DNA from: Acidobacteriota bacterium
GTDB taxonomy: Bacteria; Acidobacteriota; Vicinamibacteria; Vicinamibacterales; JAFNAJ01
Assembly: GCA_023384575.1 (NCBI GenBank)
Contig: JAHDVP010000033.1
Location: 1 to 62,431, forward strand
Length of the DNA: 62,431 nucleotides
Reading direction: 5' to 3'
How positions within the stretch are numbered: position 1 is the first letter of the stretch; the number at the start of each line of letters is the position of its first letter. Shown here piece by piece: positions 2,932 to 44,801 of this stretch. Position numbers and translations under genes: made by a program. The notes below the pieces were generated by a model that worked only from the letters and a program-made list of their open reading frames with translations, ran no database searches and was not told the DNA's origin.

Positions 2932-5900
2932 ATGACGAAGGTGTTCACCATCCTCGGACAGGCCATCGCCACGACCCAGCGACGGCTCGTCGGGCTGTGG
3001 CGACGCGTGCCGGGCAGCGCGGCGATCGATGAACTCGCCGAACTGCTGACGCGTCCCATTCGCGCGCTGGCCGACGGGTGCCTGCGGCGGTGGCCGTGGC
3101 TCGCCCGCTGGGAGTGGCTGCTCGAGGTCGACCGGCTCCGTCGCATCCCGCCGGTGATGCTCGTGCTCGTGCTTGGTTACGTCTTCTACCGCGGGATCCA
3201 GACCACGCACCTTGGTCACATCGGGACGGACCGGCTGATCTATCCGCTGCTCAGCGCCATCTCGTACTTCAACCCGTTTCTCGGCATCGTGTCGGCCGCG
3301 CTCTTCGGCATCGGCGACCTCCTGCAGAAGCTCGTGGTGAACGACATCTACGGCAGCCGTGGCGTGGGACGTCTCGCACCGCTTGCGGCCTACGGGGATC
3401 TCAACTACTGGGGCGGCGTCGTCGGCTACGCGGTGGCCTACAGCTCGCTCGTCATGGCAGGCCTCGTGCCCGGGTTGCTGGCGCGTGTCTTCCGCCTCGC
3501 CGTGCAACGGACCATCACCTTCGTCCTCTTCAGGCGGGCGGCGGCCGCAGCCGACGGCGCATCGTCCGCCTCGCCCTACGCGGGCGCCCACGTGAGTGCC
3601 AGCCCGGTGAGCGTGCTCATGCCGGGAGGCGTCGAGCCGAGGTATCCGGTCGCGGAGCTGGCCGCGGCGGTGATCGGGGCCGGCGTCGGCGGTGCGGGCG
3701 TGATGTACTTCGTGGCGCCGACGCTCGAAGCGCCTGCCTTCCTGTGGCGTCCCAACCCCGACGTCTCGTGCCACAACCTCGAGGTGTCGACCTTTCTGCA
3801 ACAGCCGGCGCTCAGCCGGGGCGGCGTGGGCGGTGCGAGTGGCGGCCTGGTGATGAACAGCCTCGTGCCGATGCCACCCACTCCAGGCGCACCCGCAGGT
3901 CCCGAGGTGAGAGACGAGCCCGTTGCTCGGGAGCACCTGTCGCGGCCGCTCGTCGATCCTGAAACCGGGCGCGAGTTACTGGTGCACGACGGCTCGTACG
4001 AGGGAGGTTGGCCAGGGCAGGTCTGGCACCAGGGGCGCTGGATGGATCCGGCTGAAGCGGCCGCGTTGATCACGCGTTGGGACGAGGCGCTCTCGCGCGA
4101 CCGCCGCGAGTGGTTCGACCGCGAGACGAGGCAGTGGGAGGCGGACGTCGAGCGACGGCGCCGCGAGGAGGGCTACGGCCACGATCCGTATCGCGACGAG
4201 TGGCGCGAGCTGCCGCCCGAGGTCGCTCCAGTCGAGATTCCGCCCGAGGACCCCGACATCTGGAAGGTGCAGCGCACGAAGGAGGATCCGGGGTTCCTGC
4301 ATCGCATGTTCGTGGGGCCGAGCAGCGCCGATCACGTGAAGATGCACGAGCGGTTCACCGAACTCGACACGCTCCACACGCGAGCCCTCACCGAGTACCT
4401 CGACACCGTGCGCGCCGAGCGCGAAGCGCGCGAGAAAGGCGACACGTGGCTGGCCGAGGTGTATCGCGCCCGCCGCGAGCCCTGTCGGGCCAACGTCACG
4501 GCGATCCGCGGGGCGACGCTCGACCTCACCGGGCGCGTGGCCGACACCGCTGAGGGTGGCCGAGTTCACCGGCAGAATCTGGCGAAGCAGACGCAGTTCA
4601 GTTGGTGGAAAGTCGGCAGGGAACTCGTGTGGGATCCCGTCAAGGCGATCTTCAAACCCGATGTGGCCGACGAGCGGGGTGATGGCCCGATCGGCACGGC
4701 ATTCAAGCGGCTCAAGGCCGCCTCGGACGCGATGCGCGAGAACGCCCGCGAGCAACCCGCCCTCGAGGAGCGGTTTCGCGACGCGATGAACGCGACGAAG
4801 CTCCACATGGAGCAGTTGACGGCCGCGCGGCTGCGGGGCGATGCCACGGCCGTTCGCGTGCTCGAGGAGCAGGTGCGCGCCGCCCGCGAGCAGGCCCTCG
4901 AAGCCAATCACCAGCGCGGAGAGCTCTCGGCGAAGACGCGAGACTGGGAGAGGGCAGCCGCGCGCGTGACGCACCAGTACTACAAGTCGATGTCGGAGCG
5001 CATCGGTGCCGGGCAGGTTCAGTACAAGATTGGCCGGGCCGGGTCGCGCGTGGCCGCAAAGGTCACCGGAGCGTTCGATGCCGACCCGCGGATGCCGAAG
5101 AGCGTCAAGGGCGAAGCCGATGCCTGGGACAGGCTCCAGAAGGAGCACCGTCACGAGATGCAGCGCGCGCGTGAGCATCTGAGGGCGGGCACCGAGGGCC
5201 AGCATTCACCGGTCACGCTGACCAAGTACGAGGTCGAACTCGATCGGCGGTGGAAATTTCAGCAGTCAGTGGCCGAGCGCAAGATCGTGCGCTACGAGAC
5301 GAACCGCGCGGCATGGGAGCGTACGGGTGAGCAACTGAAGGCCGCGCGTCGGAGCGGCGATTCCGAGCGCATCATGGAGGCCTTCAAGGCGCACGAGGCC
5401 GCCGAGCGTCGCCTCGGCCAGTCGGTCAATCGCGGGCTGTCGGACGTCGACGTCAAGATGCAGCTCAAGCGGGCCCCCTCTGACGTCCAGCACGCCTGGA
5501 ACACCGACGTCGAGCGGTTCCGTACGACTCCCGTCCGCAGCCGCACCGTCGATCTCATCAACCAGAAGAAGCCCTGGGTCGTTGAACAGGCACCCGGGAA
5601 GTTCCGGCGCTTGTCGACAGACGACCTGAAGAGCGTGAGCAGCCGCAAGGGCGCGGGTCTCGACCTCGACCTGAACCCCGACGCGAAGGTCGTCGACATG
5701 CGCACGGGCCAGCGCGTGTCGGATGCGCAGCTGCAGGGGGCGGTGAACGAGGCCTGTCGCAGCCTGCGCATCGATGCGGCCCGGCAGGACATCCACGTGT
5801 CGAGCACGCGTCACCCGTCGGCCTATCGCGTGCCGGCGGGGCACGAGCCGTCCGACGTCCTCAAGCCCGACTACGTGCGGCGGTCGGGTCCGATGGACGG

Positions 5901-7389
5901 CGAACAGATGAAGCAGGTGTCGGATTTCAAGCGGCTGCAGGAGGTGGCCCCTGGCGACCTCGCCGGCAAGGCGTACCAGGCGGTCAAAGACTACCGGCGC
6001 TTCACGAAGGAGATGATCGAGGCCCACCCTGGTGCCCGGCCACCTCGCGTGCTGAACGAGAAGACGATCGCCACGCTCGAAGACCTCGGCAATCGGAAGA
6101 TCGGCCCGGGCACCGCGGCCGCACGCATCAAGCACGCGACGGGCATGAGCATCGACGAGGCGTGCGAGAAGCTGAACTCGCTTCAGCAGTCGGTGCCGAC
6201 GCTCGACTCGCCGGCCCGGCGCATCGACCTCGCCAACGCGCGTGCCGCGGCGGCTCCACCCGGATCCGCGGCCTCGGCTCCCCCGAGCGGGTACGACCTC
6301 CGTGGCCTTGTCGGCGACAAGACACCGGCCTTGCGCACGAAGAGCGCGCGGGAACTCTACGACGCGCTCAAGCAGCGCGACCCGGCGTCGTTTGTCGACG
6401 CGGACGGCAACGTGCGGGCCGTGGGCACCGTCCCGACGCCTGAGATCACCAACACGAAGGCGGCGATCGAGGCTCGCGCCGCCGCCCGCGGGTACGTCGA
6501 CTCGGGGGCGTCGGGCCGGCGGGCGTTTGCCGAACGCCTCGACGACGTGCGAGCGGCCGACCCGGTGTTCCGAGGCGCACACGACAAGGTCCAGAAGGCC
6601 ATGGGCGAGGGCTTCAGTCGTCGCATCGACGAGATTGCACAAGAACACAGCGCAAAGGTTGCGGGTGAGGGTAGATGGGGCGAACCCGGGTCGACGCCGT
6701 TCAAGGCCGAGGTGGGACGGCGCATCAACATCACCCCCCTCGACGACCCCAGGGCGGTGCAGCACCAGCAACGCGCCATGTTCGAGCATGGCGTCACCGA
6801 GGCGGAGTTCGATGCGTATGTTGGGGTTCGGCAGAAGGTCTGGCAGGGTGAGCCCGTGGCGCCCGTGAAACCGCTGCCACCGGCCGATGGCCGTACCCCG
6901 CACTACGTCGACATCGAACAGCGTCTCGGATCAGGGCCGGAAGCATCACCATCGGCGACCCCCATGATGTCACCGCCCGGGCAGACGGCCCCATCCGCGA
7001 CGCAGGCACCGCAGCCTCCGCCGGTCGAACCCCCGCCGCAGGCGCCAGCTGCCCCCGTTCGACGTGCTTTGGTGTCAAGCGAGCCCGCGGCAGGCGCGGA
7101 GGCCCCTGGCGCGGCCCCCGATCCCGTCAGGCCCGCACCAGAGAGGCCTGCGGCGTCCACGCGCGAGCCCGTGCGGCCAGAGCCGTCGCGTCCCGACCCG
7201 GTCAGCAGGGAACGCGTGCGCCCCGAGCCACCGCGTCCCGAGCCGTCACCCCCGGAGGTCCGACGCCCTGAACCAGCACGACCCGTCGCGACACGTCCGA
7301 CACCAGAGCCCCCGGTGGCGCCAGCGCGAATTGCTCCGGAACGCGTGAAGCCAGCTCGCCGGTTCCTCGACTTCTTCACCAGGCGGTGA
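2932..7389 (+). CDS. giant membrane-anchored helical/coiled-coil protein, unknown function
   Basis: The 1485-aa protein starts with ATG after a near-perfect AAGGAGG (2920-2926). Hydrophobic segments lie within the first about 265 residues: PVMLVLVLGYVFY near 76, a pair around 100-135, one around 165-195, and a glycine-rich segment near 245. A long charged, Arg/Glu/Ala-rich helical region of about 1000 residues follows, with likely coiled coils. The last about 170 residues are Pro-rich with repeated RPEP/RPEPSRP-type units and end in a basic RRFLDFFTRR tail. I do not recognise the family. It is followed at four bases by two zinc-ribbon proteins, so the three probably form one operon. The architecture (membrane N-terminus, long stalk, extended tail) suggests a scaffold or secreted-machine component, but that is speculation. 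Confidence 0.6.
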   Translation: MTKVFTILGQAIATTQRRLVGLWRRVPGSAAIDELAELLTRPIRALADGCLRRWPWLARWEWLLEVDRLRRIPPVMLVLVLGYVFYRGIQTTHLGHIGTDRLIYPLLSAISYFNPFLGIVSAALFGIGDLLQKLVVNDIYGSRGVGRLAPLAAYGDLNYWGGVVGYAVAYSSLVMAGLVPGLLARVFRLAVQRTITFVLFRRAAAAADGASSASPYAGAHVSASPVSVLMPGGVEPRYPVAELAAAVIGAGVGGAGVMYFVAPTLEAPAFLWRPNPDVSCHNLEVSTFLQQPALSRGGVGGASGGLVMNSLVPMPPTPGAPAGPEVRDEPVAREHLSRPLVDPETGRELLVHDGSYEGGWPGQVWHQGRWMDPAEAAALITRWDEALSRDRREWFDRETRQWEADVERRRREEGYGHDPYRDEWRELPPEVAPVEIPPEDPDIWKVQRTKEDPGFLHRMFVGPSSADHVKMHERFTELDTLHTRALTEYLDTVRAEREAREKGDTWLAEVYRARREPCRANVTAIRGATLDLTGRVADTAEGGRVHRQNLAKQTQFSWWKVGRELVWDPVKAIFKPDVADERGDGPIGTAFKRLKAASDAMRENAREQPALEERFRDAMNATKLHMEQLTAARLRGDATAVRVLEEQVRAAREQALEANHQRGELSAKTRDWERAAARVTHQYYKSMSERIGAGQVQYKIGRAGSRVAAKVTGAFDADPRMPKSVKGEADAWDRLQKEHRHEMQRAREHLRAGTEGQHSPVTLTKYEVELDRRWKFQQSVAERKIVRYETNRAAWERTGEQLKAARRSGDSERIMEAFKAHEAAERRLGQSVNRGLSDVDVKMQLKRAPSDVQHAWNTDVERFRTTPVRSRTVDLINQKKPWVVEQAPGKFRRLSTDDLKSVSSRKGAGLDLDLNPDAKVVDMRTGQRVSDAQLQGAVNEACRSLRIDAARQDIHVSSTRHPSAYRVPAGHEPSDVLKPDYVRRSGPMDGEQMKQVSDFKRLQEVAPGDLAGKAYQAVKDYRRFTKEMIEAHPGARPPRVLNEKTIATLEDLGNRKIGPGTAAARIKHATGMSIDEACEKLNSLQQSVPTLDSPARRIDLANARAAAAPPGSAASAPPSGYDLRGLVGDKTPALRTKSARELYDALKQRDPASFVDADGNVRAVGTVPTPEITNTKAAIEARAAARGYVDSGASGRRAFAERLDDVRAADPVFRGAHDKVQKAMGEGFSRRIDEIAQEHSAKVAGEGRWGEPGSTPFKAEVGRRINITPLDDPRAVQHQQRAMFEHGVTEAEFDAYVGVRQKVWQGEPVAPVKPLPPADGRTPHYVDIEQRLGSGPEASPSATPMMSPPGQTAPSATQAPQPPPVEPPPQAPAAPVRRALVSSEPAAGAEAPGAAPDPVRPAPERPAASTREPVRPEPSRPDPVSRERVRPEPPRPEPSPPEVRRPEPARPVATRPTPEPPVAPARIAPERVKPARRFLDFFTRR

Positions 7390-14944: not shown

Positions 14945-16741
14945 TCAACCGACGAAGGCAAGGGTGGAGAAGAGCGTCTCCAGCCGCTCGCGTTGATACT
15001 GGTAGCCCGCCGAGAGGGTCCAGCGCTCGCCTCCCGCAAACCAGAGGTCGACGCCGGGCGAGTGCGCCGAGCGCGTCCAGTCGGAGTAGTTCAGCTCGTC
15101 GTTCTTCGAATCGCGATACCGATAGCTGGCCGAGATCGCGACACGTTCGTCCGGCGTCCACGACACCGTCTGGTCGAAGCGCAGGTCGCGTGACGGAAAC
15201 GACGTCAGGTCGGTCGACCGGGTCCGGTAGAACTCGTAGTACTGCAGGCCGAGCAGCGGTGACGGCGGCGACCCCGGGCTCGGGAAGGGCTGCAGCACCG
15301 CCGGCGTCGCGGCGTGCACGTACCGGAAGGGTTCGTCGATCCAGTCGTTCCTGACCCGGAACCGGTACTGCGCCTGCCTGCCGAGCGGCGCCCGGCCGCT
15401 CACGAGCACGGTGTTCGTGGTCGTCTGGTCGATCTCCCCGTGCGGGCGATCGATCCGCTCCCACTCGTACCCGAATCGCAACGAAGTCTTCTTCCGCGGA
15501 CGGTAGTTCAGCTCGACCGCCATCTCGGTCGGCGTACGCGACCGCTCGGAGTAGCGCGTCCAGTCGAGCTCGCCGACCGTCGGGTACGCTTGCTCGTAGG
15601 TGAGTCCGGCGATTGGGCCGGCGGGGTTCGGCTTCTCGGGCACGTGAATGAAGACATCGTCGGCCTCGATGCTGTAGCGGCGCAGGTCGGCCCGGAGCGT
15701 GAGCTTCGGGTGGATCGGCACGACGAGCCGTCCGCTGCCTCCCGTGTAATCGACCTCGAGCCGGGTGTCTTCGTTGCGCGAGACGCTCTTCGTGAACTGC
15801 CCCGAAAGCGCCGCGTCGCGCGGGAGCGCGACGTTCGCGCGCACGACGTGCATGTCCTTGCGCAGGCCCGGAACGGTCGCCATCGGCAGCGGACCGTCCT
15901 CCTCTTCGTACCACAGCCGGTTGAGGAAGATGTCCTGGAGCGTGGCCGGGTGCACGCCGTTGATGTACTGCGTGATGATGGTCGGCGCGTCGCTCCGGAA
16001 CAGGCGATTGGTGTAGGTGTAGTCGACGCTCACCGCGCCCATCGCGATCTTCGCGCCCGCCGAGAGGTCGCGCGTCGTCTCGTCGACCTCGCGCGTGTAG
16101 CCGCGCACGTGGCACGTCGCGCAGTGGTTCACCGTCGTCGACTGGCGCGCGCCGTCGCGCATCTGCTGCCGGTGGCCGACGAAGAACGAGACGCCCGCCG
16201 GGAGGTTGGTCGAGACGCGCGCGTCGAGCTCGCCCACGTTCACCTGGTAGCGCGCCCCGGGATCGGTGTCCTCGTGCGTCACGACGAAGGTGCCGTTGAT
16301 GTTCGACGCCGAGTCGAGGTAGGCGAGCGAGTCGTGCTCGATGCGGTGCGGGAAGCGCTGGTAGCGCACGTGCGCGCGCACCCACCGGTTGAAGTCGATG
16401 TCGGCGAGGTAGCGTTGCGCCCGGGCATCACCCGAGTTCCGTGCCGAGACGTCGAAGTGGAAGCCGCTGTGGCCCCCCCAGAACTCGGCGGCGAGCGAGG
16501 GCACGGCGCCCGGCCTCAGCACCTGGAACTCGCCGACGCGCCCGAGGTCGTTTCTGCCGTCGGTGGCCAGCGTGCCGAAGGTGAACATGCCCTCCCACTT
16601 CAGACCCGGTGGGGAAGGGGCGACCTGAGCCGGGTCGGCTGGTGGTGACGCCGGCGTCTGGCCGTCGGCGGCCGGCGGTGCGAGGCCGAGCGCCAGGGCG
16701 ACGGCGACCACGGGCAGGATGAGACTCGATCCGGTTCGCAT
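14945..16741 (-). CDS. MtrB/PioB-family decaheme-associated outer-membrane barrel (main part)
   Basis: ATG at 16741 follows GGAGGGA and lies 11 bases after the decaheme cytochrome stop, so the two are one operon. Residues 1-26 are a signal peptide ending in ADGQ. The rest reads as repeated beta strands with long loops, as in MtrB/PioB barrels, which hold a periplasmic decaheme protein and let electrons cross the outer membrane. A single heme motif, CATCH, lies near residue 205. The frame stops at TGA after residue 598; with the following 141 residues the protein would be about 740 codons, within the family range. The family call rests on architecture and the decaheme partner. Confidence 0.75.
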   Translation of the reverse strand: MRTGSSLILPVVAVALALGLAPPAADGQTPASPPADPAQVAPSPPGLKWEGMFTFGTLATDGRNDLGRVGEFQVLRPGAVPSLAAEFWGGHSGFHFDVSARNSGDARAQRYLADIDFNRWVRAHVRYQRFPHRIEHDSLAYLDSASNINGTFVVTHEDTDPGARYQVNVGELDARVSTNLPAGVSFFVGHRQQMRDGARQSTTVNHCATCHVRGYTREVDETTRDLSAGAKIAMGAVSVDYTYTNRLFRSDAPTIITQYINGVHPATLQDIFLNRLWYEEEDGPLPMATVPGLRKDMHVVRANVALPRDAALSGQFTKSVSRNEDTRLEVDYTGGSGRLVVPIHPKLTLRADLRRYSIEADDVFIHVPEKPNPAGPIAGLTYEQAYPTVGELDWTRYSERSRTPTEMAVELNYRPRKKTSLRFGYEWERIDRPHGEIDQTTTNTVLVSGRAPLGRQAQYRFRVRNDWIDEPFRYVHAATPAVLQPFPSPGSPPSPLLGLQYYEFYRTRSTDLTSFPSRDLRFDQTVSWTPDERVAISASYRYRDSKNDELNYSDWTRSAHSPGVDLWFAGGERWTLSAGYQYQRERLETLFSTLAFVG

Positions 16742-16752
16742 GGCGTCCCTCC

Positions 16753-17760
16753 TCAGCGCGTCATGGCCTTGCCGCGGCCGGTGACGCCCTGCGACGGCAG
16801 ATCCGAGCCGTGGATCTTGTTGTGGCACGCCGTGCACCGCGTGCCGTAGGCGCGCATGAACCCGGTCGGGCCGTTGGGGTTCGTCGAGCCGCCAGCCGGC
16901 AGGAAGAACGGCGTGCTCGGCGCGAGTCGCGCGTTGTGGAAGTGCATCTCGTGGCACTGCAGGCACAGGAACGGCTCGCCCTGCTTGAGCAGGTTGTTTG
17001 CCACCGTCCCGTGCGGCGAATGGCAGCTCGTGCAGCTCTCCTCGACCGGCGCGTGCTCGAAGACGAAGGGGCCGGCCTTCGACGTGTGACACGACGTGCA
17101 CAACTCGTTCGGCCGCTCGGCCGAGCGGACCATGCCGAGGCCAGTGCCGTGGACCTCGTGACAGGAGCTGCATGTCATCAGCCCCTCGCGCACGGGGTGC
17201 CGCGAGCTGCCCATGAACTGCGCCCGCTGTTGCCTGTGACAGTCGAAGCACAGCTCCGGCTCGGACTTCGCCAGTGAGCCGCGTGGCGCCGGGGCCGTCG
17301 CATGCGAGGCCACCATCCCTTCGGCCGACGTCAGACGCCCTGCGACCTGGCGCGACTGGTGAATCCTGTGGCAGCTGGTGCAGCCGACGTCAGACATCGC
17401 GTGCTCGCTGCCGGCCCAGGCCATCGCCGAGTCGCCGCGATGGCACGACAGGCACGCTCGCGCCGACTCCTCGACGGTCAGATCCTTGAAGCCCCTGATC
17501 GCCGCCGCGTCGCCGCTCTCGGCGTGCGTGCTGCCTGGGCCATGGCAGGACTCGCAGCGCTCGTGCGGCGCGCGGTGCTCCCACGCCGCGAGCCGGCCGT
17601 GCGCCGATCGGTCGAACTGAGTCGCGACCTCTTCGTGACACATCGCGCAGGTGTCCTGGCCCACGGCCGTCGCCGGCGGACCTGCCGACTGTGCCGACAG
17701 CAGGCCCGCGGCGCCCACGGCGAGGGCGCCGACGAAGCCTGCCAGGTGGGGAAGACGCAT
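16753..17760 (-). CDS. periplasmic decaheme c-type cytochrome (MtrA/DmsE type)
   Basis: The 335-aa protein has a signal peptide (residues 1-24, GALAVGAAGLLSAQS) and exactly ten CxxCH motifs, from CAMCH at 38-42 to CTACH at 309-313: CAMCH, CESCH, CLSCH, CTSCH, CFDCH, CSSCH, CTSCH, CTSCH, CLQCH, CTACH. Length and heme number match MtrA/DmsE/PioA. Such proteins carry electrons across the periplasm into a barrel partner, and that partner gene follows at 11 bases. The start at 17760 was chosen for its GAGGGGG ribosome site and clean signal peptide; a longer frame up to 18021 would run through the promoter. No surface cytochrome gene accompanies it here. A sigma54-type promoter lies about 64 bases before the start codon's leader. 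Confidence 0.92.
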   Translation of the reverse strand: MRLPHLAGFVGALAVGAAGLLSAQSAGPPATAVGQDTCAMCHEEVATQFDRSAHGRLAAWEHRAPHERCESCHGPGSTHAESGDAAAIRGFKDLTVEESARACLSCHRGDSAMAWAGSEHAMSDVGCTSCHRIHQSRQVAGRLTSAEGMVASHATAPAPRGSLAKSEPELCFDCHRQQRAQFMGSSRHPVREGLMTCSSCHEVHGTGLGMVRSAERPNELCTSCHTSKAGPFVFEHAPVEESCTSCHSPHGTVANNLLKQGEPFLCLQCHEMHFHNARLAPSTPFFLPAGGSTNPNGPTGFMRAYGTRCTACHNKIHGSDLPSQGVTGRGKAMTR

Positions 17761-34186: not shown

Positions 34187-34804
34187 ATGAAATCAGGAAT
34201 GTCCCTCGTTGTCGCTTTGACGGTCGGGCTCTCGGCCGGTGCAGTCTTTGCGCAGGAACCGCTGCCGAGCGTCGGTCAGCTGTACGAGTCCGGGAAGAAC
34301 CAGCAGGTCGTCGAGACGGTGATGGCCGAGGGCGAGGCCGCTCCCCCCGACCACCTCTACCTCGCGGGCCAGAGTCTCATGAAGCTCGAGAGCCGCGAGC
34401 ACGCGCGCGACGTCTTCGGCCGGCTGATCAACGACGACGAGGCCAGCCCGTGGCGGGCACTGGGCGCGTCGGCCACCGCGGTCATCGACGGCGACTACGA
34501 ACGCGCGTACGCCGAGGCCGCCCGAGCCGCCGAACTGGCGCCAGGCCTCTTCTACGCGCACTACCAGGTGGGCCTCACCGAGGGCTACCGCGGGAACCCG
34601 GCGGCGTCGGCGTCGGCCTTCGAACGGGCCATCGCGCTCAACCCCGGGTCGGCTTACGCCCACTACTACGCCGGTATGGCGCACTACAAGGCCCGACGCG
34701 TCGACCAGATGGGCCGGCACTTCGAACAGTTCGTGAAGCTCGCGCCGGAGGCCCCGGAGCGGCCGGCCGTCGAGTCGATCATGCGTTCGCTCAGGGGGCG
34801 CTGA
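34187..34804 (+). CDS. exported TPR-repeat protein
   Basis: The 205-aa protein starts with ATG after TTGAGGAG. Residues 1-22 are a signal peptide ending in VFAQ. The rest is helical pairs fitting tetratricopeptide repeats, clearest at AYAEAARAAELAPGLFYAHY and AASASAFERAIALNPGSAYAHYY. Such repeats bind partner proteins; the protein should sit in the periplasm. No enzyme domain is present. Its stop lies 14 bases inside the 3' end of the convergent PhzF-like gene, so the two messages overlap tail to tail. Confidence 0.8.
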   Translation: MKSGMSLVVALTVGLSAGAVFAQEPLPSVGQLYESGKNQQVVETVMAEGEAAPPDHLYLAGQSLMKLESREHARDVFGRLINDDEASPWRALGASATAVIDGDYERAYAEAARAAELAPGLFYAHYQVGLTEGYRGNPAASASAFERAIALNPGSAYAHYYAGMAHYKARRVDQMGRHFEQFVKLAPEAPERPAVESIMRSLRGR

Positions 34805-35612
34805 GCGCGTCCGCGATCGTGTCCGTCCAGTCGGGGACGTGAACCTCGGCGGTCATGTAGTCGACGGCACGCCCCGACAGCAGCACGCGGCTGCCGCTCA
34901 CCTCGCAGGCCACCGTGCCGCCCCGTTTCGAGCGCTGCCGGCCGACGAGGTGCGTACGGCCGAGTCTTCTGGCCCAATAAGGAGCCAGCTCGCAGTGGGC
35001 CGAGCCGGTCACCGGGTCTTCGTCGACGCGAAGTTTCGGGAAGAAGCAACGGCTCACGAAGTCGGTGTCGCCGCCTGGCGCCGTCGCGACGACGCCCCGC
35101 AGGCCGACGCGCCGCAGCATGGCGAAGTCCGGGGCGAGTGCCACGACCTGCTGCTCGGTCTCGTAGACGACGACGTAGTCGAACGCCGCGAGGACCTCGC
35201 ACGGCTGGCTTCCGAGCGCCTCGACGAGAGCGACGGGCGTTTCGGTCGGCGCTGGCAGTGCCGCGGGGAAGTCCATGCAGAGTCCGAGCGGACCGCGGTG
35301 CACGACGAGTTGGCCGCTGCGGGTCGAGAAGCGCACCTCGGGCCGTTGGTAGCCAAGGTGCGTGAAGAGCACGTGCGCGCTCGCCAGCGTCGCGTGCCCG
35401 CAGAGGTCGACCTCCTCGGCCGGCGTGAACCACCGCAGCTCGAACCCGTCGGCCGCCGGCACGAAGAACGCGGTTTCCGACAGGTTGTTCTCCTCGGCAA
35501 TGGCCAGGAGCAGACCAGCGTCGAGCCAGGCCTCGAGCGGGCACACGGCAGCCGGATTCCCTTCGAAGACCCGGTCGGCGAAGGCGTCGACCTGGAACAT
35601 CCTGAGCTTCAT
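34791..35612 (-). CDS. PhzF-family isomerase/epimerase-like protein
   Basis: The 273-aa protein has the two-lobed PhzF fold. FEGNPAAVC and the catalytic glutamate in NNLSETAFF (E46, equivalent to PhzF Glu45) are in lobe one, with DLCGHATLASAHVLF; DPVTGSAHCELAPYW is in lobe two. Family members catalyse proton-transfer isomerisations; most, including this one without phenazine genes nearby, have unknown substrates. ATG 35612 is preferred because GGAG lies six bases upstream, while the ATG at 35618 abuts the same GGAG. It lies just downstream of the large TamB-BamA gene on its strand end. Confidence 0.9.
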   Translation of the reverse strand: MKLRMFQVDAFADRVFEGNPAAVCPLEAWLDAGLLLAIAEENNLSETAFFVPAADGFELRWFTPAEEVDLCGHATLASAHVLFTHLGYQRPEVRFSTRSGQLVVHRGPLGLCMDFPAALPAPTETPVALVEALGSQPCEVLAAFDYVVVYETEQQVVALAPDFAMLRRVGLRGVVATAPGGDTDFVSRCFFPKLRVDEDPVTGSAHCELAPYWARRLGRTHLVGRQRSKRGGTVACEVSGSRVLLSGRAVDYMTAEVHVPDWTDTIADALSAP

Positions 35613-35640
35613 GGCCATCTCCGCAGGGGCGCGGGCTCGA

Positions 35641-38600
35641 TCAGAACGCCTGGCCGATCGAGAAGAACCAGCGGGCGCCCCGTTCGCCGCGTGGCCGGCT
35701 GACTGGCACGCCGTAGTCGATTCTGAGCAGGGCGAAGGGCGTGTCGAGGCGCAGGCCGGCGCCTACGCCGACCTCGAGCTCGCCAAGGGCGATACGCGCC
35801 GGGTTCGCGAAGACGTTCCCCGCATCAGCGAACGCGACGCCCCGGACGAACCCGCGGATCGGGAAGCGCACCTCCTGATTGAGCACCAGCAGGGCCTCGC
35901 CGCCGCGGGGATCGCCGAGGAAGCTGCGCTCGCCGAGGGAGTCCTCCGCGTATCCTCGGACGCTGTTGCCGCCTCCGGCGAAGAACCGCTCGCTTGGAAC
36001 GATCTCCTGGCCGAAGCCCTGCGAGAGCCCAACGCGGGCGGCCGACGCCAGCACGATGCCTCGTCCGACCGGGCGGTAGTCATAGTGCTGGAGCAGGTAC
36101 TTGACGAAGCGCAGATCCGAACCGAGTCGCTCGGAGGAGTACTCCACGTTCGAGGTGTGGAACCAGCCACGGGTGGCGTCGAACGGGTCGTCGCGCGTGT
36201 CGATGGCGATGCCGGACGTCAGCCGCGCGATGTTGATCGTGATGTCGAGGCCAAAGGGGTCGTCCGGGTCGCGCGCGGGGTCGAACGTCCGGTTCCACTC
36301 GTACCGGTAGCCGTAGTTGAGCGATACCGCCCGGCCGCGGCGGTACCGCTGCTCGGCAGCGACGTCCCAGCGCGTGGTCACGAACCGCAGGGTCTCACCG
36401 CCGCCGAAGGTCTCGCGCGACCTCGTCACGAACAGGTTCGTCGTGAGCGGGAGCGCGAAGAAGCGCGGCGCGCTGGCGAAGCCACGCACCAGCCAGCGAC
36501 GGTTCTCGATCCGCACCGCGGCACCTGCGCTGTCGGCGATGCCAATCAGGTTCCGACGCTGCAGATCGAACACGACGCCGGGCCTGACGCGGCGTCGCTC
36601 GCTCTCGGGTGAGCGATCGTCGGTGACCTGGAAGCCGTAGCGGAACCGGTAGAGAGGCCATTCGACGAGGGAGACGCGCGCCTGCACTTCCTCGACCCGG
36701 GGACCCGGCGCCGCGGACTGCGCGGCCTCGGGAACCACCTCCGTCCGCTCGGCCCCCGCGTCCGGGCCATCGGCTTCGACGGGCACCGGCTCAACGTCGG
36801 CCCGGCGGAACACCCCTGTCTGATAGAGCCGTCGACGCGCCTGGTACCACTCGGACAGGTCGACGGGGGCGCCCCGCTCCAGGCTCAGCGCTCGCTCGAT
36901 GACGCCGGCGCGGGTCCGATCGGCTCCCTCGACCACGATCTCGCCGAGCACCTGCTGTGGACCCTCGTCGATGGCGAGGTCGACGGCGACCGTCGCGGCG
37001 TCGCGTTCGACCTTCTGGCGCACCACGAGGCGCGCGGCGTTGTAGCCGTGTCGACGGTACAGCTGCTCCACGCGCCGCCGCGCGCTGTCGACGCGGTCGG
37101 GATCGTACGCATCGCCCGGCTGAAGCCTGAACGCCTCGCGCACGGCGTCTTCCGCGATCCCGCTCGCGCCGGCGACGCTCACGTTCCCGACGACGAATGG
37201 CGGACCCTCGTCGATCGCCACGAGGAGGCGGCCGCGGTCGCCCTCGATCGCCGGCGGGCTGGTCTCGACGGACGCGCCGAGTCTGCCCTGCCGCTCGTAG
37301 GCCGCGCGAATCGGGCGCTCCGCCAGCGCGGGTTCCCTCCACACCTCGTCGGCGATGCCGGCCTCCTCGATGATCTGCTCCAGCCGCCGCGCGCTCAGCA
37401 CGCCGTGTCCGGTGAACTCGATCCGGCGGTCCGTCGTGCGGCGACCTGCGGTCACGCGGACGACGACATGCTTGTCGCCCGGAGGGGTGCCGGGGCGCAC
37501 CTCGGCGCGCACGTCCGCCTCGAGGTATCCGTCGGCGAGCAGCGCGCCTTCGACGATGCCACGGAGATCGTCGAGCAGGAACCCGTCGTAGACCGTTCGC
37601 GTCCACGCGTCGACCATCTCGCGCTCGACACGTGCCGGAAGCTCGACCCCCTCGATCTCCAGCGTGGTCCTGGGCCCGGGGTCCACGACGTACGCAAGCG
37701 CCACCGACCCGCCGTCGGGGCCGGGCTCGGTGTCGTCACGGGTCGCGTCGACCGAGGCCTCGAAGAACCCGAGCTCGTGGAAGTAGGCGAGCACGCGCTC
37801 CCGGTCGTCCTGCCACCGGAAGAAGTCGAACCGCGAGCCGCGGTCGACCCTGAGCCGCCGTTCGAGCGCCGCGCGAACGGTCGCGTCGACGCCTTCGATG
37901 ACGACGCTCGATACCCTCGGGGCGGGTGGGCGGCTCCGCCGGAGGGTCTGCCCGCCAGCCGCGCCGCCGAAGGACACGTCCTGTCGGGCTTCGTACGCCA
38001 TCGAGGTGTTGTCGCGTGAGATCACCCGCAGGTCGACGTTGCGACCCGGACGATACGTGGCAATCCAGGTGAGCGAGTTCGAGTCGCGCAAGCTCTGCGA
38101 CAGCGCGAGCTCGAACTGCTGCCCCAGGTTCTTCGACAGCGTGATCCGCGAACTGGGGTCGGTCTCGTCCGAGAGCGCCCATGGCCCGACGTCGAACGTA
38201 TCGGCCCCGTCGCTGCGCTCGATTCGGACGGCATCGAGGCCCACGGCCCGACCCGCCGCGCCGAGCAGCTCGCCCGAGAGCAGCCCGAGCAGCTGGTCGC
38301 GCGCCACCTCGGCCTCGGCGCCTCCTGTCTCGTCGCGCGTCCGCCCGGTCAGCAGCAGCGACACGAGGTCGCCCTGGGCGAGCGACGGGTCGTCCGACGT
38401 GAGATCGGCCGTGATGGTCTCGGGCGTGCCGCTCACGTTCAGCGTGATCTCGTGACCGCGCACCCGTGTCCTTGCCGTCAGGTCGATTTCGGGTTCGATG
38501 CGGGCTGGATTGGTGAAGTCGACCGTGCCGCGTTCGATCTGGTAGCGATTGCCTCCGAGGAAGACCTGGCCGCCCTCGCGCAGTTCGGCACGCCCAGCCA

Positions 38601-41600
38601 GTGAGGGTTCGGCCAGCGTGCCGATCGCCCGCAGGTCGGCGCCCATCTCGAAGCGGCCGTAGTTGTTGTCGAACGCCAGGTCCTCGCGCGTGATGACGGC
38701 CACGTCGAGCCGCGTGGCCATCAGGCCGGTGCCGGCCGCCGGTGCCGCCTGAGGCGCCGCGGGCGCCCCCTGTCCCCGCAGGAGCTGGGCGAGGCTGAGC
38801 GGCCGCCGGTAGCCGCCGCGCACCACGGTCACCTCGCCGAAGAGCCGGGGAACGACCGCCGTGGGCGGCTGCGACAGCGTCACGGCGACGTTGACCTCGC
38901 TCTGGAGGCCCTCGATGTCCATGGCGATGCCACGACCAGTGAGCGAGACGTCGAGCTCGCCGATGGCGAACGCGGGAAAGCGCGCCCGGCCGCCGACCTC
39001 GATCGGTCCTCCGTTGGCCGTTCCTGTCATGCGGTCGATGCGCAGCTCGTCGCCCCGCAGGACGAGCGATCCCGAGACGCCGCTCACCGCGAGGCGCGGC
39101 TCTCGCAGGCGCGCCTCGCCGCCGCTGACGATGATGCGGCCGTCGATCTCCGGCGCGCCCACCGGCCCGCCTGCGGCCAGGGAGACATCGACGCGGCCCG
39201 CCGTGGCCACACCCTCGACGAACGCGCCGATCAGCCTGAGGTCGATGAGCGCATCCGCCGCGGCATCGACGCGCACCTCGCCTTCATCGGTGAACGAGAG
39301 GCCGCCGACCACCTCGAGGCGGTTGCCAGCGCCCGCCCACACCCACTCCTCGACGCGCAGCCGCCCGTCGTCGAGGACGAGGCGCGTCGGAGAGACCTGC
39401 GCGAGTGGCACCTGCGCGATCTCGACGGCCGCCCGCTCGAACTCGACCCGCCCGCGCACGGCCGACACGCGTATCTCGTCCGCCTCGAACCACGCCGTCG
39501 CGGCGAGGACGCCCTCGAGCGCCGCCGCGGTCTCCGCGTCGACGAACGGCGCCAACGCGCGCTCCGTCAGATCGTCCACCCGGGCGTCGATGCGGGCCGA
39601 CTCCCCGGCGGCAGGCAGCCCGTCGACGTAGGCTGCCGGCAGCCAGGGTGCGACGAGTCGCATCGGCACCCGACCCGTCGCCGACGCTCGGGCGCCCTGC
39701 CAGGCGGCTTCGGCGCCGGTGAGGTGGATCACCCCGGCGTCGAGCGACGCGTCGAGCCGGCCCACGATGAACGGGGGCAGCGAGCCGAGGCGCACCGACC
39801 CGTTCTCCACGTGCACGGCGGCGTCGAGGCCAGGTCGTTCGAGTGTGTCGAGCAGGCCGACCCTGACGTCGAGGGTGCCGGCGAGCGCGACCTCGTCGTC
39901 GAGGCCGGCCAGCGAGAGAAGCGACGCGAGGTCGTCCGCCGGGCCGGCGACGGTCAGCGACAGCCGGTCGCCAGGCCGACCGAAACGTCCCGCCGCCACG
40001 AGGCGCGTCCGACCGAGTCGTACCGCGAGACCCGGGATCTCGCCCTCCCGATCGGCCCACCGCATCTCGTCGGCTCGTTCGAGCACGAGCGGTGTCGTGC
40101 CGATTCGCGCCTCGAGTGTCAGCAGGCGTGCCGTGATCTCCACGTCGGCCGGGGCCGCGAGCGTGCCCGCCGCCGTCGACTCGACGTGCAGACGGCCGAG
40201 GACGCGGTCGGTGTCGCGGAGCCGTGGAGGCAGGGGCTTGCGCAGGTCGTCGGTGTCGACACGTGCGTTCAGCGCGAAGTCCCATGGCGAGGCGAGAGCG
40301 ACCTGCCCGTCGGCGGTCACGTCGAGGTCGTACAACGCGACGTCGAGCCGTGCGGTGCCGGCGTCGAGCTCGACGTCGACGCCCATGCGGCCAATCGAGT
40401 ACTCGTCGAGTCCCACGCCCGACAGGTCGACGCGGCCCCCTCCGGCAAGGTGCGCCAGCGGTCCCCGCGCGTCCAGACGGAGCTCGTCGATCAGCGCCTC
40501 GACGCCGATCGCCTCGGTGTCTGGCGCCACGACGACCGGAGCGATCGCCAGGCGCCGGCCTTCGACGCGAATCTCGACCTCGTTCCCCCGGAGATCGATC
40601 GTTCCCGCCGCCGTGAGCGCACCACCGTCCTGGCGCAGGTCGAGGCGATCGAGGAAGACGCGGCCCCCGTCGAGTCGCACGCTCGCCTCACCGCCATCCA
40701 GGTGTTGTCCGAAGGCCCTGATGCCGTCGAGGGTGGCGGTGGCGTCGACGGTGGGTCGCGCCCACGTGCCACCAAGACCGACGTCGATCCGGGCGCGGCC
40801 AGCGAGCGGCCACGGCCCGTCCGTGCGGCCGGCGAGACGGTTCACCGCGTCGATGTCTGCAGCCATCGCGACGAGGCGTCCCGCGAGCGTCTCGCCCTCG
40901 AGTCCGAGCGTGACCTCGCCGCGCGCGGAGACGTCGTCCAGCGTGGCGTCGAGGTCGGTGAATGCCAGCGTCGCGGGGTCGGCGAGCACCGTCGCCGAGA
41001 GACGCCCGCCCCGCGCCGCCTCGAGACGCAGGTCTTCGACCTCGAGCCGTGCCGAGACTCGAGGGGCCGACACCGTTCCCGCCAGCGAACCGTCGAGCGC
41101 GATCCGCCCGTCGAGGCGGTCCTCGAGGCCTGCGGGCAGCGACACGCCGGCCGATCGCGCGAGGTCCAGCAGGGCGGGGATCCCCGGAACGTCGACCTGC
41201 AGGCTGCCCCCGAGCGTGGTGTCGGCGAACGACTCGGCGAGGCGGCCCGACGCCCGGCCGCTGACGACGGCTGCCTCACCCGCACGGTGCGCGTGGTCGA
41301 GCGTCCACGCGCCGGCCCACGCCGTGAGTGAGGCCCTGCCGGACAGCGGCACCATGGACGGCGCACCAGCGCCTCGAGCCTCGTGCGTCAGCGTGAGGTC
41401 GACAGACGGGAGGCCGCGGTGCCAGGTGGCCTCGACCTGGCCGGCCAGCACGGCGCCGATGCCGGCGTCGATGCCGAGGGCCGACGCCACGTCGTTCACC
41501 CGGAGGTCCTGCCACCGGGCCGAGAATGCGCCTCCGGTCGTCTCGCCGAGTCCGACACTCCCCGCGGCCGTGATCTCGCCGCCCGCGAGGCCCACGCGCA

Positions 41601-42639
41601 GGCGGTCGACACGCAGGGCCTCCGTGGAGACCTCCACGCCGATGTCGAGGTCGATTCGCGCCAGCGTCTCGTATGCGATCTCGGTCGAGGTCGCCGTGAG
41701 GCCGACGAGCGGCGAGGTCAGTGGTCCACTGATGGTGCCGTGCCAGTCGATGGGGCCCGAGGGCGCGGGGTCGACGTCGAGCCACCGAGCCAGGGGGCCG
41801 GCGCGCAGCGTGCCACCCACCGTGACATCGGCCTCAGGCGAAGCGAAGACGTCGGTGATCCGCCCGTCGACACGGACCGAAGCCATGGCCGGCGAGCGCC
41901 CCGAGCGACCCTCCGTCAGCGACGGCGGTGTCGGACGTCGGTCCGATCGGGCGTGCGGCGCAGGGTGTGTGTCGCCTCCGGTGACCTCGAAACGCAGTTC
42001 GTCGAGCGACACCGATGCGCCATCGAACTCGACGTACCCCGCGACGTCGTGCACGTGCAGGGCCAGGGTGCCGAACTCGAGCACGACGGGGCCGCCCGTG
42101 CTCACGGTGCCTCGCGTCCCGTCCGGTGCCGGGTGGAGGTCGAGGGCGAGGTCGGCAGCCCGGACGTGCACGGCGTCGGGACGGTGGTCGTAGTGGACGG
42201 CGAAGCCTCGTACCGAGGCACGACCCACATCGAGCCGCGTCAGGCCACCCTCGCCGTCGCCGCCCGCTGGAAGGTTGTCGCGTCCCTCCTCGTCGACGAC
42301 GACCGTCAGCGTCGTCTCACGGACATCGACGGACGACAGGGCCAGCCCGCCGAGGAGCACCCGCCAGGACAGCACCACCTCGACCGCAGCGGCCTCGAGA
42401 AACGGCGTGTCGGGCGTCTCGGCGGCGGCAAGGCGCACTCCCCTCGCGGCGACGCGTCGCGTCAACAGGTTGTAGTCGAGTCGGTCGACACGAGCGACGA
42501 GGCCGGCGTCGCCGAGCGCGCGAACCACACGGGTGGCTACGGCCGACTGGACGGGCGGCAGATGAGCCGCCGCGAACAGGACCGCCACCACGACCAACGC
42601 GGCCAGCAGGATCGACCGCCGGCGGGAGGGCGAAGGCAC
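35641..42639 (-). CDS. TamB-like / BamA-like (Omp85) fusion protein
   Basis: A single frame of 2332 codons with no break. Residues 9-26 form one inner-membrane anchor (ILLAALVVVAVLFAAAH). Residues about 30-1250 are the repeated AsmA/TamB beta-groove; about 1250-1560 are the TamB C-terminal domain (GNRYQIERGTVDF, SLLLTGRT). From about 1577 come five POTRA-like repeats, each opening with a strand such as VSSVVIEGV, TTLEIEGVEL, DRRIEFTGHG, VGNVSVAGA and LGEIVVEGA. From about 1990 there is an Omp85 barrel with VRGY (GGGNSVRGYAED) and a terminal FSIGQAF. GTG 42639 was chosen for its GGAAGAG site; a frame 25 codons longer is less likely. It would span the envelope and serve in barrel insertion or lipid transport. 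Confidence 0.9.
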   Translation of the reverse strand: MPSPSRRRSILLAALVVVAVLFAAAHLPPVQSAVATRVVRALGDAGLVARVDRLDYNLLTRRVAARGVRLAAAETPDTPFLEAAAVEVVLSWRVLLGGLALSSVDVRETTLTVVVDEEGRDNLPAGGDGEGGLTRLDVGRASVRGFAVHYDHRPDAVHVRAADLALDLHPAPDGTRGTVSTGGPVVLEFGTLALHVHDVAGYVEFDGASVSLDELRFEVTGGDTHPAPHARSDRRPTPPSLTEGRSGRSPAMASVRVDGRITDVFASPEADVTVGGTLRAGPLARWLDVDPAPSGPIDWHGTISGPLTSPLVGLTATSTEIAYETLARIDLDIGVEVSTEALRVDRLRVGLAGGEITAAGSVGLGETTGGAFSARWQDLRVNDVASALGIDAGIGAVLAGQVEATWHRGLPSVDLTLTHEARGAGAPSMVPLSGRASLTAWAGAWTLDHAHRAGEAAVVSGRASGRLAESFADTTLGGSLQVDVPGIPALLDLARSAGVSLPAGLEDRLDGRIALDGSLAGTVSAPRVSARLEVEDLRLEAARGGRLSATVLADPATLAFTDLDATLDDVSARGEVTLGLEGETLAGRLVAMAADIDAVNRLAGRTDGPWPLAGRARIDVGLGGTWARPTVDATATLDGIRAFGQHLDGGEASVRLDGGRVFLDRLDLRQDGGALTAAGTIDLRGNEVEIRVEGRRLAIAPVVVAPDTEAIGVEALIDELRLDARGPLAHLAGGGRVDLSGVGLDEYSIGRMGVDVELDAGTARLDVALYDLDVTADGQVALASPWDFALNARVDTDDLRKPLPPRLRDTDRVLGRLHVESTAAGTLAAPADVEITARLLTLEARIGTTPLVLERADEMRWADREGEIPGLAVRLGRTRLVAAGRFGRPGDRLSLTVAGPADDLASLLSLAGLDDEVALAGTLDVRVGLLDTLERPGLDAAVHVENGSVRLGSLPPFIVGRLDASLDAGVIHLTGAEAAWQGARASATGRVPMRLVAPWLPAAYVDGLPAAGESARIDARVDDLTERALAPFVDAETAAALEGVLAATAWFEADEIRVSAVRGRVEFERAAVEIAQVPLAQVSPTRLVLDDGRLRVEEWVWAGAGNRLEVVGGLSFTDEGEVRVDAAADALIDLRLIGAFVEGVATAGRVDVSLAAGGPVGAPEIDGRIIVSGGEARLREPRLAVSGVSGSLVLRGDELRIDRMTGTANGGPIEVGGRARFPAFAIGELDVSLTGRGIAMDIEGLQSEVNVAVTLSQPPTAVVPRLFGEVTVVRGGYRRPLSLAQLLRGQGAPAAPQAAPAAGTGLMATRLDVAVITREDLAFDNNYGRFEMGADLRAIGTLAEPSLAGRAELREGGQVFLGGNRYQIERGTVDFTNPARIEPEIDLTARTRVRGHEITLNVSGTPETITADLTSDDPSLAQGDLVSLLLTGRTRDETGGAEAEVARDQLLGLLSGELLGAAGRAVGLDAVRIERSDGADTFDVGPWALSDETDPSSRITLSKNLGQQFELALSQSLRDSNSLTWIATYRPGRNVDLRVISRDNTSMAYEARQDVSFGGAAGGQTLRRSRPPAPRVSSVVIEGVDATVRAALERRLRVDRGSRFDFFRWQDDRERVLAYFHELGFFEASVDATRDDTEPGPDGGSVALAYVVDPGPRTTLEIEGVELPARVEREMVDAWTRTVYDGFLLDDLRGIVEGALLADGYLEADVRAEVRPGTPPGDKHVVVRVTAGRRTTDRRIEFTGHGVLSARRLEQIIEEAGIADEVWREPALAERPIRAAYERQGRLGASVETSPPAIEGDRGRLLVAIDEGPPFVVGNVSVAGASGIAEDAVREAFRLQPGDAYDPDRVDSARRRVEQLYRRHGYNAARLVVRQKVERDAATVAVDLAIDEGPQQVLGEIVVEGADRTRAGVIERALSLERGAPVDLSEWYQARRRLYQTGVFRRADVEPVPVEADGPDAGAERTEVVPEAAQSAAPGPRVEEVQARVSLVEWPLYRFRYGFQVTDDRSPESERRRVRPGVVFDLQRRNLIGIADSAGAAVRIENRRWLVRGFASAPRFFALPLTTNLFVTRSRETFGGGETLRFVTTRWDVAAEQRYRRGRAVSLNYGYRYEWNRTFDPARDPDDPFGLDITINIARLTSGIAIDTRDDPFDATRGWFHTSNVEYSSERLGSDLRFVKYLLQHYDYRPVGRGIVLASAARVGLSQGFGQEIVPSERFFAGGGNSVRGYAEDSLGERSFLGDPRGGEALLVLNQEVRFPIRGFVRGVAFADAGNVFANPARIALGELEVGVGAGLRLDTPFALLRIDYGVPVSRPRGERGARWFFSIGQAF

Positions 42640-42751
42640 GGGCTCTTCCGATTCTATCAGTCGGTCCGGTCGAGGTCGTGCAGCCGCGAACTCGACGGGG
42701 CGAATTCTCGTCAAACTTCAGCACCGGGTGTGTCCACCGAGTGCCTGTCGT

Positions 42752-42770: not shown

Positions 42771-42882
42771 GTTGGAGGCGGTCCGTCACAACCTGCTTGC
42801 CAGTTCCGTGGGCTCATCACATTCTCGCTCCGATTCGTCCACCCTCTTGCTTCAGCTGCCGCAGTCGCCGAGGGGACGTGGG

Positions 42883-44031
42883 ATGTCGATGTTCGACGAA
42901 CAGGTCGACGCGCTGCCGGCGCCACGGGATTCGGGCTCCGAGGCCTTGAGGCCGCTCGTGCTCCGGGCGCTGCTGTTTCTCGCGGGCCTCACCGTGCTCA
43001 GCGTGTTCACCGCGGTGCACATGTACTTCTTCTACCGGCAGCGCGATCCCATCGACTGGCTCGAGGCGTTCCTGTCCGGCTTCGCGACGTGGTACCCGTG
43101 GGTGCTGCTCGGTCCGGGAGTGTTCTTTCTCGGGCGGCGGGTTCCGTTCGAGCCCGGGCGCTGGCGCCTTGCGGTACTGGTCCACCTGCCGGCCGCTCTG
43201 GTCTTCGGCGTGCTCCATGGAGGCCTGCGCGCCGCGGCTGGTCCCTTCGTCGACACTCAGCCCATCCCCGCCGGCCGGATCATCCTCGGGCAGCTTCTCC
43301 TCACGGCGCTCTCGTACTGGGTCCTCCTGGCCACCCACCAGGCGTGGATGTACTACCGCCGGTACCGCGCTCGCGAGCTGAGGACGTCCCAGCTCGAGTC
43401 GAAGCTGGCCCAGGCCCAGCTCGAGGTCCTCCGGATGCAGCTGCATCCGCACTTTCTCTTCAACACGCTCCACGCCGTCTCGGCCCTCGTCCATCGCGAT
43501 CCGGACGCCGCCGACGAGATGATCTCGCAGCTGTCCGACCTGCTCCGCATGACGCTCGACAACTTCGGCGTCCAGGAGGTGTCCCTGCGTGAGGAGCTCG
43601 AGTTCATCGAGAAGTACCTCGACATCCAGCAGACGCGCTTCCGCGATCGCCTGCGCGTCGTGATGGACGTGCCCGCCGAGACACTCGACGCACGCGTGCC
43701 GAACCAGGCCCTTCAGCCGATCGTCGAGAACGCGATCAAGCACGGCGTGGCCGCCAGGACGGGTGAGGGCCAGATCGAGATTCGCGCTCGAGGCGGACGG
43801 TCGATGCTTCGGCTCACGGTGCGCGACGACGGGCCGGGGCTCCCGGCCACCGTCAACGGCCGGTCCGTGGGCATCGGGCTGGCGAACATCCGGGCTCGCC
43901 TGAAGCAGCTGTACGGGCCGCTTGCCACGCTCGATCTCGCCAACCATCCGAGGGGCGGCACCCTGGTGACGCTGCTCGTTCCGCAACCGTCGCCGTGTCC
44001 TCCGGGAGCGGCGCGTGGAGAGGCCGCATGA
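42883..44031 (+). CDS. LytS/YehU-type sensor histidine kinase
   Basis: The 382-aa protein starts with ATG after AGGGGACG. Four or so membrane helices span residues 28-165. A coiled coil (SQLESKLAQAQLEVLRMQ) leads into the His_kinase domain with QLHPHFLFNTLH (phospho-acceptor H190) and the ATPase N-box PIVENAIKHG plus DDGPGLP and GIGLANIRARL. This is the class that pairs with LytTR regulators, and such a gene overlaps its stop (ATGA). The membrane part has no recognised ligand domain. The signal and targets are unknown; envelope stress or peptide signals are typical for the class. Confidence 0.92.
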   Translation: MSMFDEQVDALPAPRDSGSEALRPLVLRALLFLAGLTVLSVFTAVHMYFFYRQRDPIDWLEAFLSGFATWYPWVLLGPGVFFLGRRVPFEPGRWRLAVLVHLPAALVFGVLHGGLRAAAGPFVDTQPIPAGRIILGQLLLTALSYWVLLATHQAWMYYRRYRARELRTSQLESKLAQAQLEVLRMQLHPHFLFNTLHAVSALVHRDPDAADEMISQLSDLLRMTLDNFGVQEVSLREELEFIEKYLDIQQTRFRDRLRVVMDVPAETLDARVPNQALQPIVENAIKHGVAARTGEGQIEIRARGGRSMLRLTVRDDGPGLPATVNGRSVGIGLANIRARLKQLYGPLATLDLANHPRGGTLVTLLVPQPSPCPPGAARGEAA

Positions 44032-44801
44032 CCATCCGAACGTGTATCGTCGACGACGAGCCGCTCGCCCGCGAACGGCTCCGCACCCTGCTGGCGCAGG
44101 AGTCGGACATCGAAGTCATCGCCGAATGCGCCGATGGCGGCGAGGCCATCCGCGCGATCAGGGAGCAGAGGCCCGACCTGGTGTTTCTCGACGTCCAGAT
44201 GCCCGTCGTCGACGGCTTCGGCGTGCTGGAGTCGCTCGAGGGCGACGCGCCGCCCGTCGTGGTGTTCGTGACGGCCTACGACCAGTACGCGCTGCAGGCA
44301 TTCGACGTGCACGCCCTCGACTACCTGCTCAAGCCTTTCAACGGGCGTCGATTCAGGCGAGCCGTGCAACGGGCGCGCTTCGAGCTCCTCAAGGACGGAC
44401 AGGCGGCCGGCGGCGTGAGCCAGCGGCTGCTGTCGCTGCTCGAGACGTTGCGCCAGGACAAGAAGCCGCAGGAACGGCTGGTGCTCAAGACCGCTGGCCG
44501 CGTCACCTTTCTCAAGGTCGACGAGATCGACTGGATCGAAGCGGAGGGCAACTACGTCCGGCTCCACGTCGGGGCGCATTCCCACCTGCTGCGCGAGACG
44601 ATGAAGGGCATCGAGACGAAGCTCGACCCCGAGCGGTTCATCCGCATCCACCGATCGACCATCGTGAACACGGATCGCATCAAGGAGCTCCAGCCGCTGT
44701 TCCATGGCGAGTACGCCGTGACGCTGCAGGACGGAACCCGTCTGACGGCGAGCCGAGGGCCCGAGAACAAGCTCCGGAGGATGATCGACACCCGGCTCTG
44801 A
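44028..44801 (+). CDS. LytTR-family response regulator
   Basis: The 257-aa protein overlaps the kinase stop by four bases. Receiver: IVDDEPLARERL near the start, phospho-acceptor D55 in LVFLDVQMP, VTAYDQYALQAF and LLKPFN. From about 145 the LytTR DNA-binding domain follows: VDEIDWIEAEGNYVRLH, then RFIRIHRSTIVNTDRIKEL, both standard for AlgR/AgrA/LytR proteins. It binds DNA through beta strands in pairs of sites. No clear target repeats were found nearby. With the LytS-type kinase it forms a complete two-component system; the M1 peptidase 54 bases downstream may be co-transcribed. Confidence 0.95.
   Translation: MTIRTCIVDDEPLARERLRTLLAQESDIEVIAECADGGEAIRAIREQRPDLVFLDVQMPVVDGFGVLESLEGDAPPVVVFVTAYDQYALQAFDVHALDYLLKPFNGRRFRRAVQRARFELLKDGQAAGGVSQRLLSLLETLRQDKKPQERLVLKTAGRVTFLKVDEIDWIEAEGNYVRLHVGAHSHLLRETMKGIETKLDPERFIRIHRSTIVNTDRIKELQPLFHGEYAVTLQDGTRLTASRGPENKLRRMIDTRL

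Follow-up and report, generated by a model that had tools for sequence, protein, structure and literature searches.

In the Pseudomonadota, TamA and TamB are two proteins encoded by adjacent genes, with tamA before tamB, and TamA has three POTRAs. In the TamAB machinery of E. coli, the groove of TamB carries phospholipid, the last TamB strand pairs with strand 1 of TamA, and the C-terminal TamB strands lie inside the barrel (PMC12800296). Other pairings are known. In Borreliella the DUF490 domain of TamB binds the POTRAs of BamA (PMC11361582), and in the Acidobacteriota a duplicated, seven-POTRA BamA is encoded in an operon with tamB (Heinz et al., 2015; PMC4494059). The Bacteroidota likewise have TamB with a TamA-like Omp85, TamL, which is a separate lipoprotein. 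In chloroplasts, the TamB homologue TIC236 bridges to the Omp85 protein TOC75 across the envelope. The long lipid-groove fold is also found in eukaryotic Vps13 and LPD-3/BLTP1, which have no Omp85 barrel. Finally, extra domains can be carried on an Omp85 barrel, as in multi-domain Omp85s with WD40, patatin or metalloprotease domains (Heinz & Lithgow, 2014; PMC4104836); the text of that paper lacks the term DUF490 and names TamB once, as a partner of TamA, and no TamB-bearing class was found there. Similarly, Heinz et al. (2015) use neither the word fusion nor the word fused, and no description of a TamB-Omp85 fusion was found in the open full-text literature, as distinct from subscription papers and preprints.

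Here we describe such a fusion, in which TamB and Omp85 are parts of one protein, unlike TIC236 and TOC75. The gene lies on a 62,431-nucleotide contig of an Acidobacteriota bacterium of the order Vicinamibacterales; this whole stretch of DNA is referred to below as the window. The gene, its parts (in the order of the protein) and the genes next to it are as follows:

35641..42639, minus strand: TamB-Omp85 fusion gene, 2332 aa from GTG, with even codon-position GC
42565..42630, minus strand: putative N-terminal inner-membrane signal anchor, RRR plus hydrophobic helix (AlphaFold2 helix; N-termini of homologues)
38395..42501, minus strand: long beta-groove of TamB/AsmA type (AlphaFold2, pLDDT 83.8; Foldseek; VIA)
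37969..38376, minus strand: TamB C-terminal domain, two helices and strands (Pfam TamB at 38008-39033; AlphaFold2; alignment)
37918..37968, minus strand: 17-residue linker from the last TamB strand to POTRA1 (AlphaFold2 model)
37681..37917, minus strand: POTRA1 (AlphaFold2, Pfam)
37450..37671, minus strand: POTRA2 (AlphaFold2)
37210..37431, minus strand: POTRA3 (AlphaFold2)
36967..37194, minus strand: POTRA4 (AlphaFold2, Pfam)
36661..36957, minus strand: POTRA5 with a disordered insert (AlphaFold2, Pfam)
35644..36651, minus strand: 16-strand Omp85 beta-barrel (Pfam Omp85; AlphaFold2; VIA)
34791..35618, minus strand: PhzF-family gene between the fusion and the TPR gene, outside the conserved set
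34187..34804, plus strand: secreted TPR protein (Pfam TPR), a conserved neighbour

A preliminary description of this DNA had proposed that all these domains lie in a single unbroken frame, and this is borne out. The frame is open for 2332 codons from the GTG at 42639, directly 5' of RRR and the hydrophobic segment, or for 2357 codons from an alternative upstream TTG at 42714, and ends with the stop at 35641-35643; codon-position GC is even over all 2357 codons, junction included. Residue numbers, in Pfam matches and AlphaFold2 models alike, are counted from the TTG.

The proposed order of domains (anchor, groove, TamB C-terminal domain, POTRAs, barrel) is supported, and TamB, POTRA and Omp85 all score above their Pfam cut-offs. 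The C-terminal TamB/DUF490 domain is recognised by PF04357 at residues 1228-1569 (E 1.1e-24, 87.8 bits vs a cut-off of 22.4), POTRA matches fall in four stretches (1.2e-32), and membership of the Omp85 superfamily follows from a match to PF01103 at 2055-2357 (E 1.7e-47, 163 bits vs a curated cut-off of 24). A fifth POTRA, as the preliminary description had claimed, is seen in the AlphaFold2 model, Pfam alone giving four. Profiles for the individual described families lie below threshold: the NCBIfam TamB equivalog scores 37.5 vs 825 bits, TamA 99 vs 625 bits, and the AsmA-like models PF05170 and PF05359 score 23.1 of 29.8 and 30.8 of 50 bits, respectively. The protein thus has the groove, C-terminal domain and Omp85 barrel of the TamA-TamB pair, differing in being one chain with TamB first, in its five POTRAs and in these equivalog scores; TAM is defined by two separate partner proteins, and the fusion is a single frame.

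The model of residues 27-1214 (mean pLDDT 83.8) opens with an N-terminal helix pair followed by near-continuous beta-strands. Foldseek ranks the bridge-like lipid transfer complex of LPD-3 first (E 1.4e-7), and VIA aligns the model with LPD-3 (Z 8.4), TamB of TamAB (Z 8.3; 190 residues, 4.6 Å) and Vps13 (Z 8.0). Since these Z-scores are modest and overall TM-scores are low, they support the groove fold and nothing beyond it; the resemblance to bridge-like lipid transfer proteins and TamB is one of predicted fold, from which binding or movement of lipid can at most be predicted. The model of residues 1190-2357 (pLDDT 73.8) comprises the groove end, the helices and strands of the TamB C-terminal domain, five POTRAs and 16 barrel strands. 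It matches BamA over ~850 columns (E about 1e-39), and by VIA it gives Z 19.4 with TamA over 516 residues and Z 19.1 with BamA over 688 residues, from POTRA1 onward. The same model places a 17-residue linker between the last TamB strand and POTRA1, the TamB C-terminal domain itself being of low confidence, with part of the region under pLDDT 50.

The junction is built alike in nearly all of the sequences printed, with a last TamB strand ending in an aromatic residue, then the linker, then POTRA1. The strand that closes the TamB side is conserved (of the type ELRAVSRDD..RSYEFRHDVTFGG) and in the window protein is followed by Phe-Gly-Gly. Most separate TamBs terminate at the same strand (for example VRHVF*, and QFEF* in E. 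coli TamB), an aromatic residue standing at or beside the C-terminus in most cases; an aromatic ending of the last TamB strand is therefore a further feature shared with the TamA-TamB pair. Across 83 fused frames, the gap between the TamB and POTRA profiles has a median of 31 residues. Taken as a group, the 83 fused junctions have a mean peak hydrophobicity of 0.55, with single junctions reaching 1.9, vs 2.12 for the signal-peptide-bearing N-termini of separate Omp85s, which indicates that the fused Omp85 part lacks a signal peptide of its own.

These features bear on whether the frame encodes a polyprotein, with cleavage near the linker or a second start yielding TamB and Omp85 as two proteins of the usual kind. 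The linker sequence varies and is R/P/A-rich, like exposed linkers, and an ATG (codon 1572) and a GTG (codon 1580) lie near the junction. However, translation of the Omp85 half from an internal start would give a protein with no signal peptide, no start codon with a Shine-Dalgarno-like sequence was found at the window junction, no conserved Met or internal start is present there in the aligned fused sequences, and the same genomes carry two-gene versions with proper signal peptides. The coexistence of two-gene versions with fused frames kept open across the phylum suggests selection for one chain, and we regard the polyprotein as distinctly unlikely.

A single chain need not be anchored in the inner membrane. 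Of 57 full-length fused proteins, 51 have a clearly hydrophobic N-terminal segment, in most cases preceded by basic residues, and the sequence and model of the window protein point to a signal anchor of the TamB kind. Were this segment a cleaved signal peptide, the protein would reside on the outer membrane only and the two membranes would not be tied together. An A-x-A follows the hydrophobic segment in 15 of the 57, and the window protein has LFAAA-H; in the remaining 42 the motif is absent, and in the AlphaFold2 model a second helix comes after the TM-like one, in keeping with TamB/AsmA signal anchors. Cleavage is accordingly judged doubtful, and an uncleaved anchor is the reading preferred here. 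Two fused frames of 2969 aa (L080 and L081, in genomes G025 and G028) lack the usual hydrophobic N-terminus in their first 260 residues; either the proteins carry a long extension or the open frame overlaps upstream.

Searches of the same genome returned eight Omp85 barrels and two TamB domains. As read from translations, contig 10 encodes a canonical bamA followed on the same strand by Skp-like, FabZ-like and LpxA-like genes. On contig 85 (C85), a stand-alone tamB is followed immediately by a stand-alone omp85, whose product has a signal peptide and seven POTRA matches, an arrangement that fits the acidobacterial seven-POTRA BamA/tamB operon (PMC4494059). Because both a bamA and a tamB-omp85 pair are present, the fused gene is an additional paralogue and not a replacement; that it makes good a missing TAM can be rejected. 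It shares with the operon-encoded protein the lineage of TamB-partner Omp85s, and differs from it in that its POTRAs number five and are not preceded by a signal peptide.

The barrel had been called BamA-like, which is apt for its fold and POTRA number, since the model and structural matches give the five POTRAs and 16-strand barrel of BamA, and inapt for its affinity. The tree of barrels, with canonical BamAs as outgroup, places 53 fused rows in one clade (support 99) and a further 12 in a separate second group. The fused barrel does not fall in the BamA clade and, on phylogenetic grounds, belongs with the TamB-partner Omp85s; a score of 226 vs 297 bits against the BamA equivalog TIGR03303 likewise speaks against canonical BamA identity, which is rejected. 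It could nevertheless be supposed that the protein acts mainly as an alternative BAM-type OMP insertase, its TamB part being a chaperone arm in place of a lipid conduit, given the five POTRAs, the full-length structural match to BamA, a TPR neighbour reminiscent of the TPR-containing BamD, and the insertion of Ag43 by TamAB as well (PMC12800296). A canonical BamA is, however, encoded separately, the tree position and TIGR03303 score are as just given, and the groove makes up more than half of the protein, all of which leaves such a role rather improbable beside that of a TAM-type conduit.

The TamB-domain tree gives a compatible picture of the other half. Separate acidobacterial TamBs form a clade (support 100), with the exception of L175, on a long branch; fused sequences occur in several groups, and the window protein falls within a 35-row set (support 97) of 34 fused sequences and L175. 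Both trees recover the same two main groups of fused sequences, which is what joint inheritance of the two halves would produce. Their history comprises either one old fusion with later splitting, or two fusions. At two loci (L162 and L174) a separate tamB and omp85 lie in the same frame with exactly one stop codon between them, the omp85 having its own signal-peptide-like start; this arrangement is possibly an intermediate between pair and fusion, in either direction.

Fused frames are widespread in the Acidobacteriota. They are about 2000-2450 aa long, with a few longer (median 2267 aa for 57 complete frames), and their aligned parts mostly share 22-43% identity with the window protein. The counts that follow are lower bounds, from sampled genomes (most of them draft metagenome assemblies) with limited candidates scored in each, and include only frames extracted in the analysis, since frames reported by searches can span stops; one reported frame of 2273 aa (G170) is in fact the two in-frame genes of L162. 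Within the same family, one genome (G003) has a complete fused frame of 2360 aa and in another (G001) the fused frame is truncated where a contig stops. Within the order, at least 30 of the 69 genomes sampled have fused frames, and other orders of the class have more divergent ones, up to three per genome; G020 encodes three different fused paralogues (L086, L091 and L092). Beyond the class, at least 31 acidobacterial genomes, spread over 19 families, have them; one of these (G161, L163) was called by TamB and POTRA profiles, with a barrel below the profile threshold. The fusion is not an isolated curiosity: it represents an old family that extends across the phylum. In this sampling, it was missing from about half of the genomes of the order, so not all of the group requires it; in a single-contig genome of the order (G029), these searches found only a separate pair (L116) and no fusion. 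Those relatives that carry names are metagenome-assembled genomes of Acidobacteriota, among them Vicinamibacterales, Vicinamibacteraceae and Luteitalea sp. A scan of named records with patterns near the relatives of the window protein returned acidobacterial metagenome-assembled genomes, one record labelled Acidimicrobiia, which is probably mislabelled, and one weak Opitutales Omp85 match.

This distribution also disposes of the concern that two genes were joined in assembly. The window does come from a 112-contig draft, but homologous fused frames occur in many independent genomes, including a single-contig genome of 5.985 Mb outside the class (G156; L139, 2086 aa). An artefact is thereby ruled out, its residual probability being negligible.

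The secreted TPR protein is the conserved neighbour of the fusion. Its gene lies beside the fused gene at 18 of the 20 loci with enough flank (L117-L136) and at a few more distant loci, is usually convergent (tail-to-tail) and immediately downstream, and is absent from every separate tamB-omp85 locus fetched; no close paralogue of the TPR protein was found in the genome. From this neighbourhood, a functional link with the fusion is likely. On the other side, directly upstream of the fused gene, a LytS-type histidine kinase and a LytTR response regulator are encoded divergently (42859-44801, plus strand). Elsewhere in the window, a gene at 14945-17251 (minus strand) matches an MtrB/PioB-like outer-membrane porin, and a 1485-aa open frame at 2932-7389 (plus strand) has no Pfam match; the DNA is GC-rich and this frame may be spurious.

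Collectively these observations make it probable, in our judgement, that the protein is a one-chain TAM, in which a short linker connects the C-terminal beta-domain of TamB to an Omp85 barrel of TAM type with five POTRAs. The chain would be exported by Sec with its N-terminal anchor left uncleaved, and the canonical BAM machinery would insert the fused barrel. The beta-groove would then form a fixed 1:1 conduit for phospholipid from the inner to the outer membrane, and/or the protein may assist a subset of OMPs; the TPR protein would probably act as a helper in the periplasm. We infer a trans-envelope role in lipid transport or OMP assembly; a one-chain tie between the membranes with 1:1 coupling is plausible from the sequence, and would hold only if the chain stays uncleaved. 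The fusion keeps every domain of E. coli TamAB, the difference being that the contact is covalent and at POTRA1, the POTRA farthest from the barrel. With a linker of 17 residues, estimated to span at most about 60 Å when extended, and five POTRAs, a hybrid barrel of the E. coli type may be out of reach within one molecule. The last TamB strand may instead dock on POTRA1 or on a neighbouring molecule.

The fusion is a further variant of the TAM-type machinery, whose parts are separate in well-studied species. It touches on the open questions of how phospholipid arrives at the outer membrane and whether TamB works with its Omp85 partner as a bridge of fixed 1:1 stoichiometry. A naturally occurring covalent link between the two provides Rosetta-stone evidence for direct coupling, sets stoichiometry and order, and offers one protein to be purified or imaged as a complete bridge. 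It also poses a problem, because, if the anchor is indeed retained, insertion of a barrel into the outer membrane would need to take place with the N-terminus still fixed in the inner membrane. Whether the wider implication holds seems to us evenly balanced: Acidobacteriota may long have used single-chain machines that are integral to both membranes, in which the lipid bridge is permanently coupled and a TPR protein is the dedicated helper.
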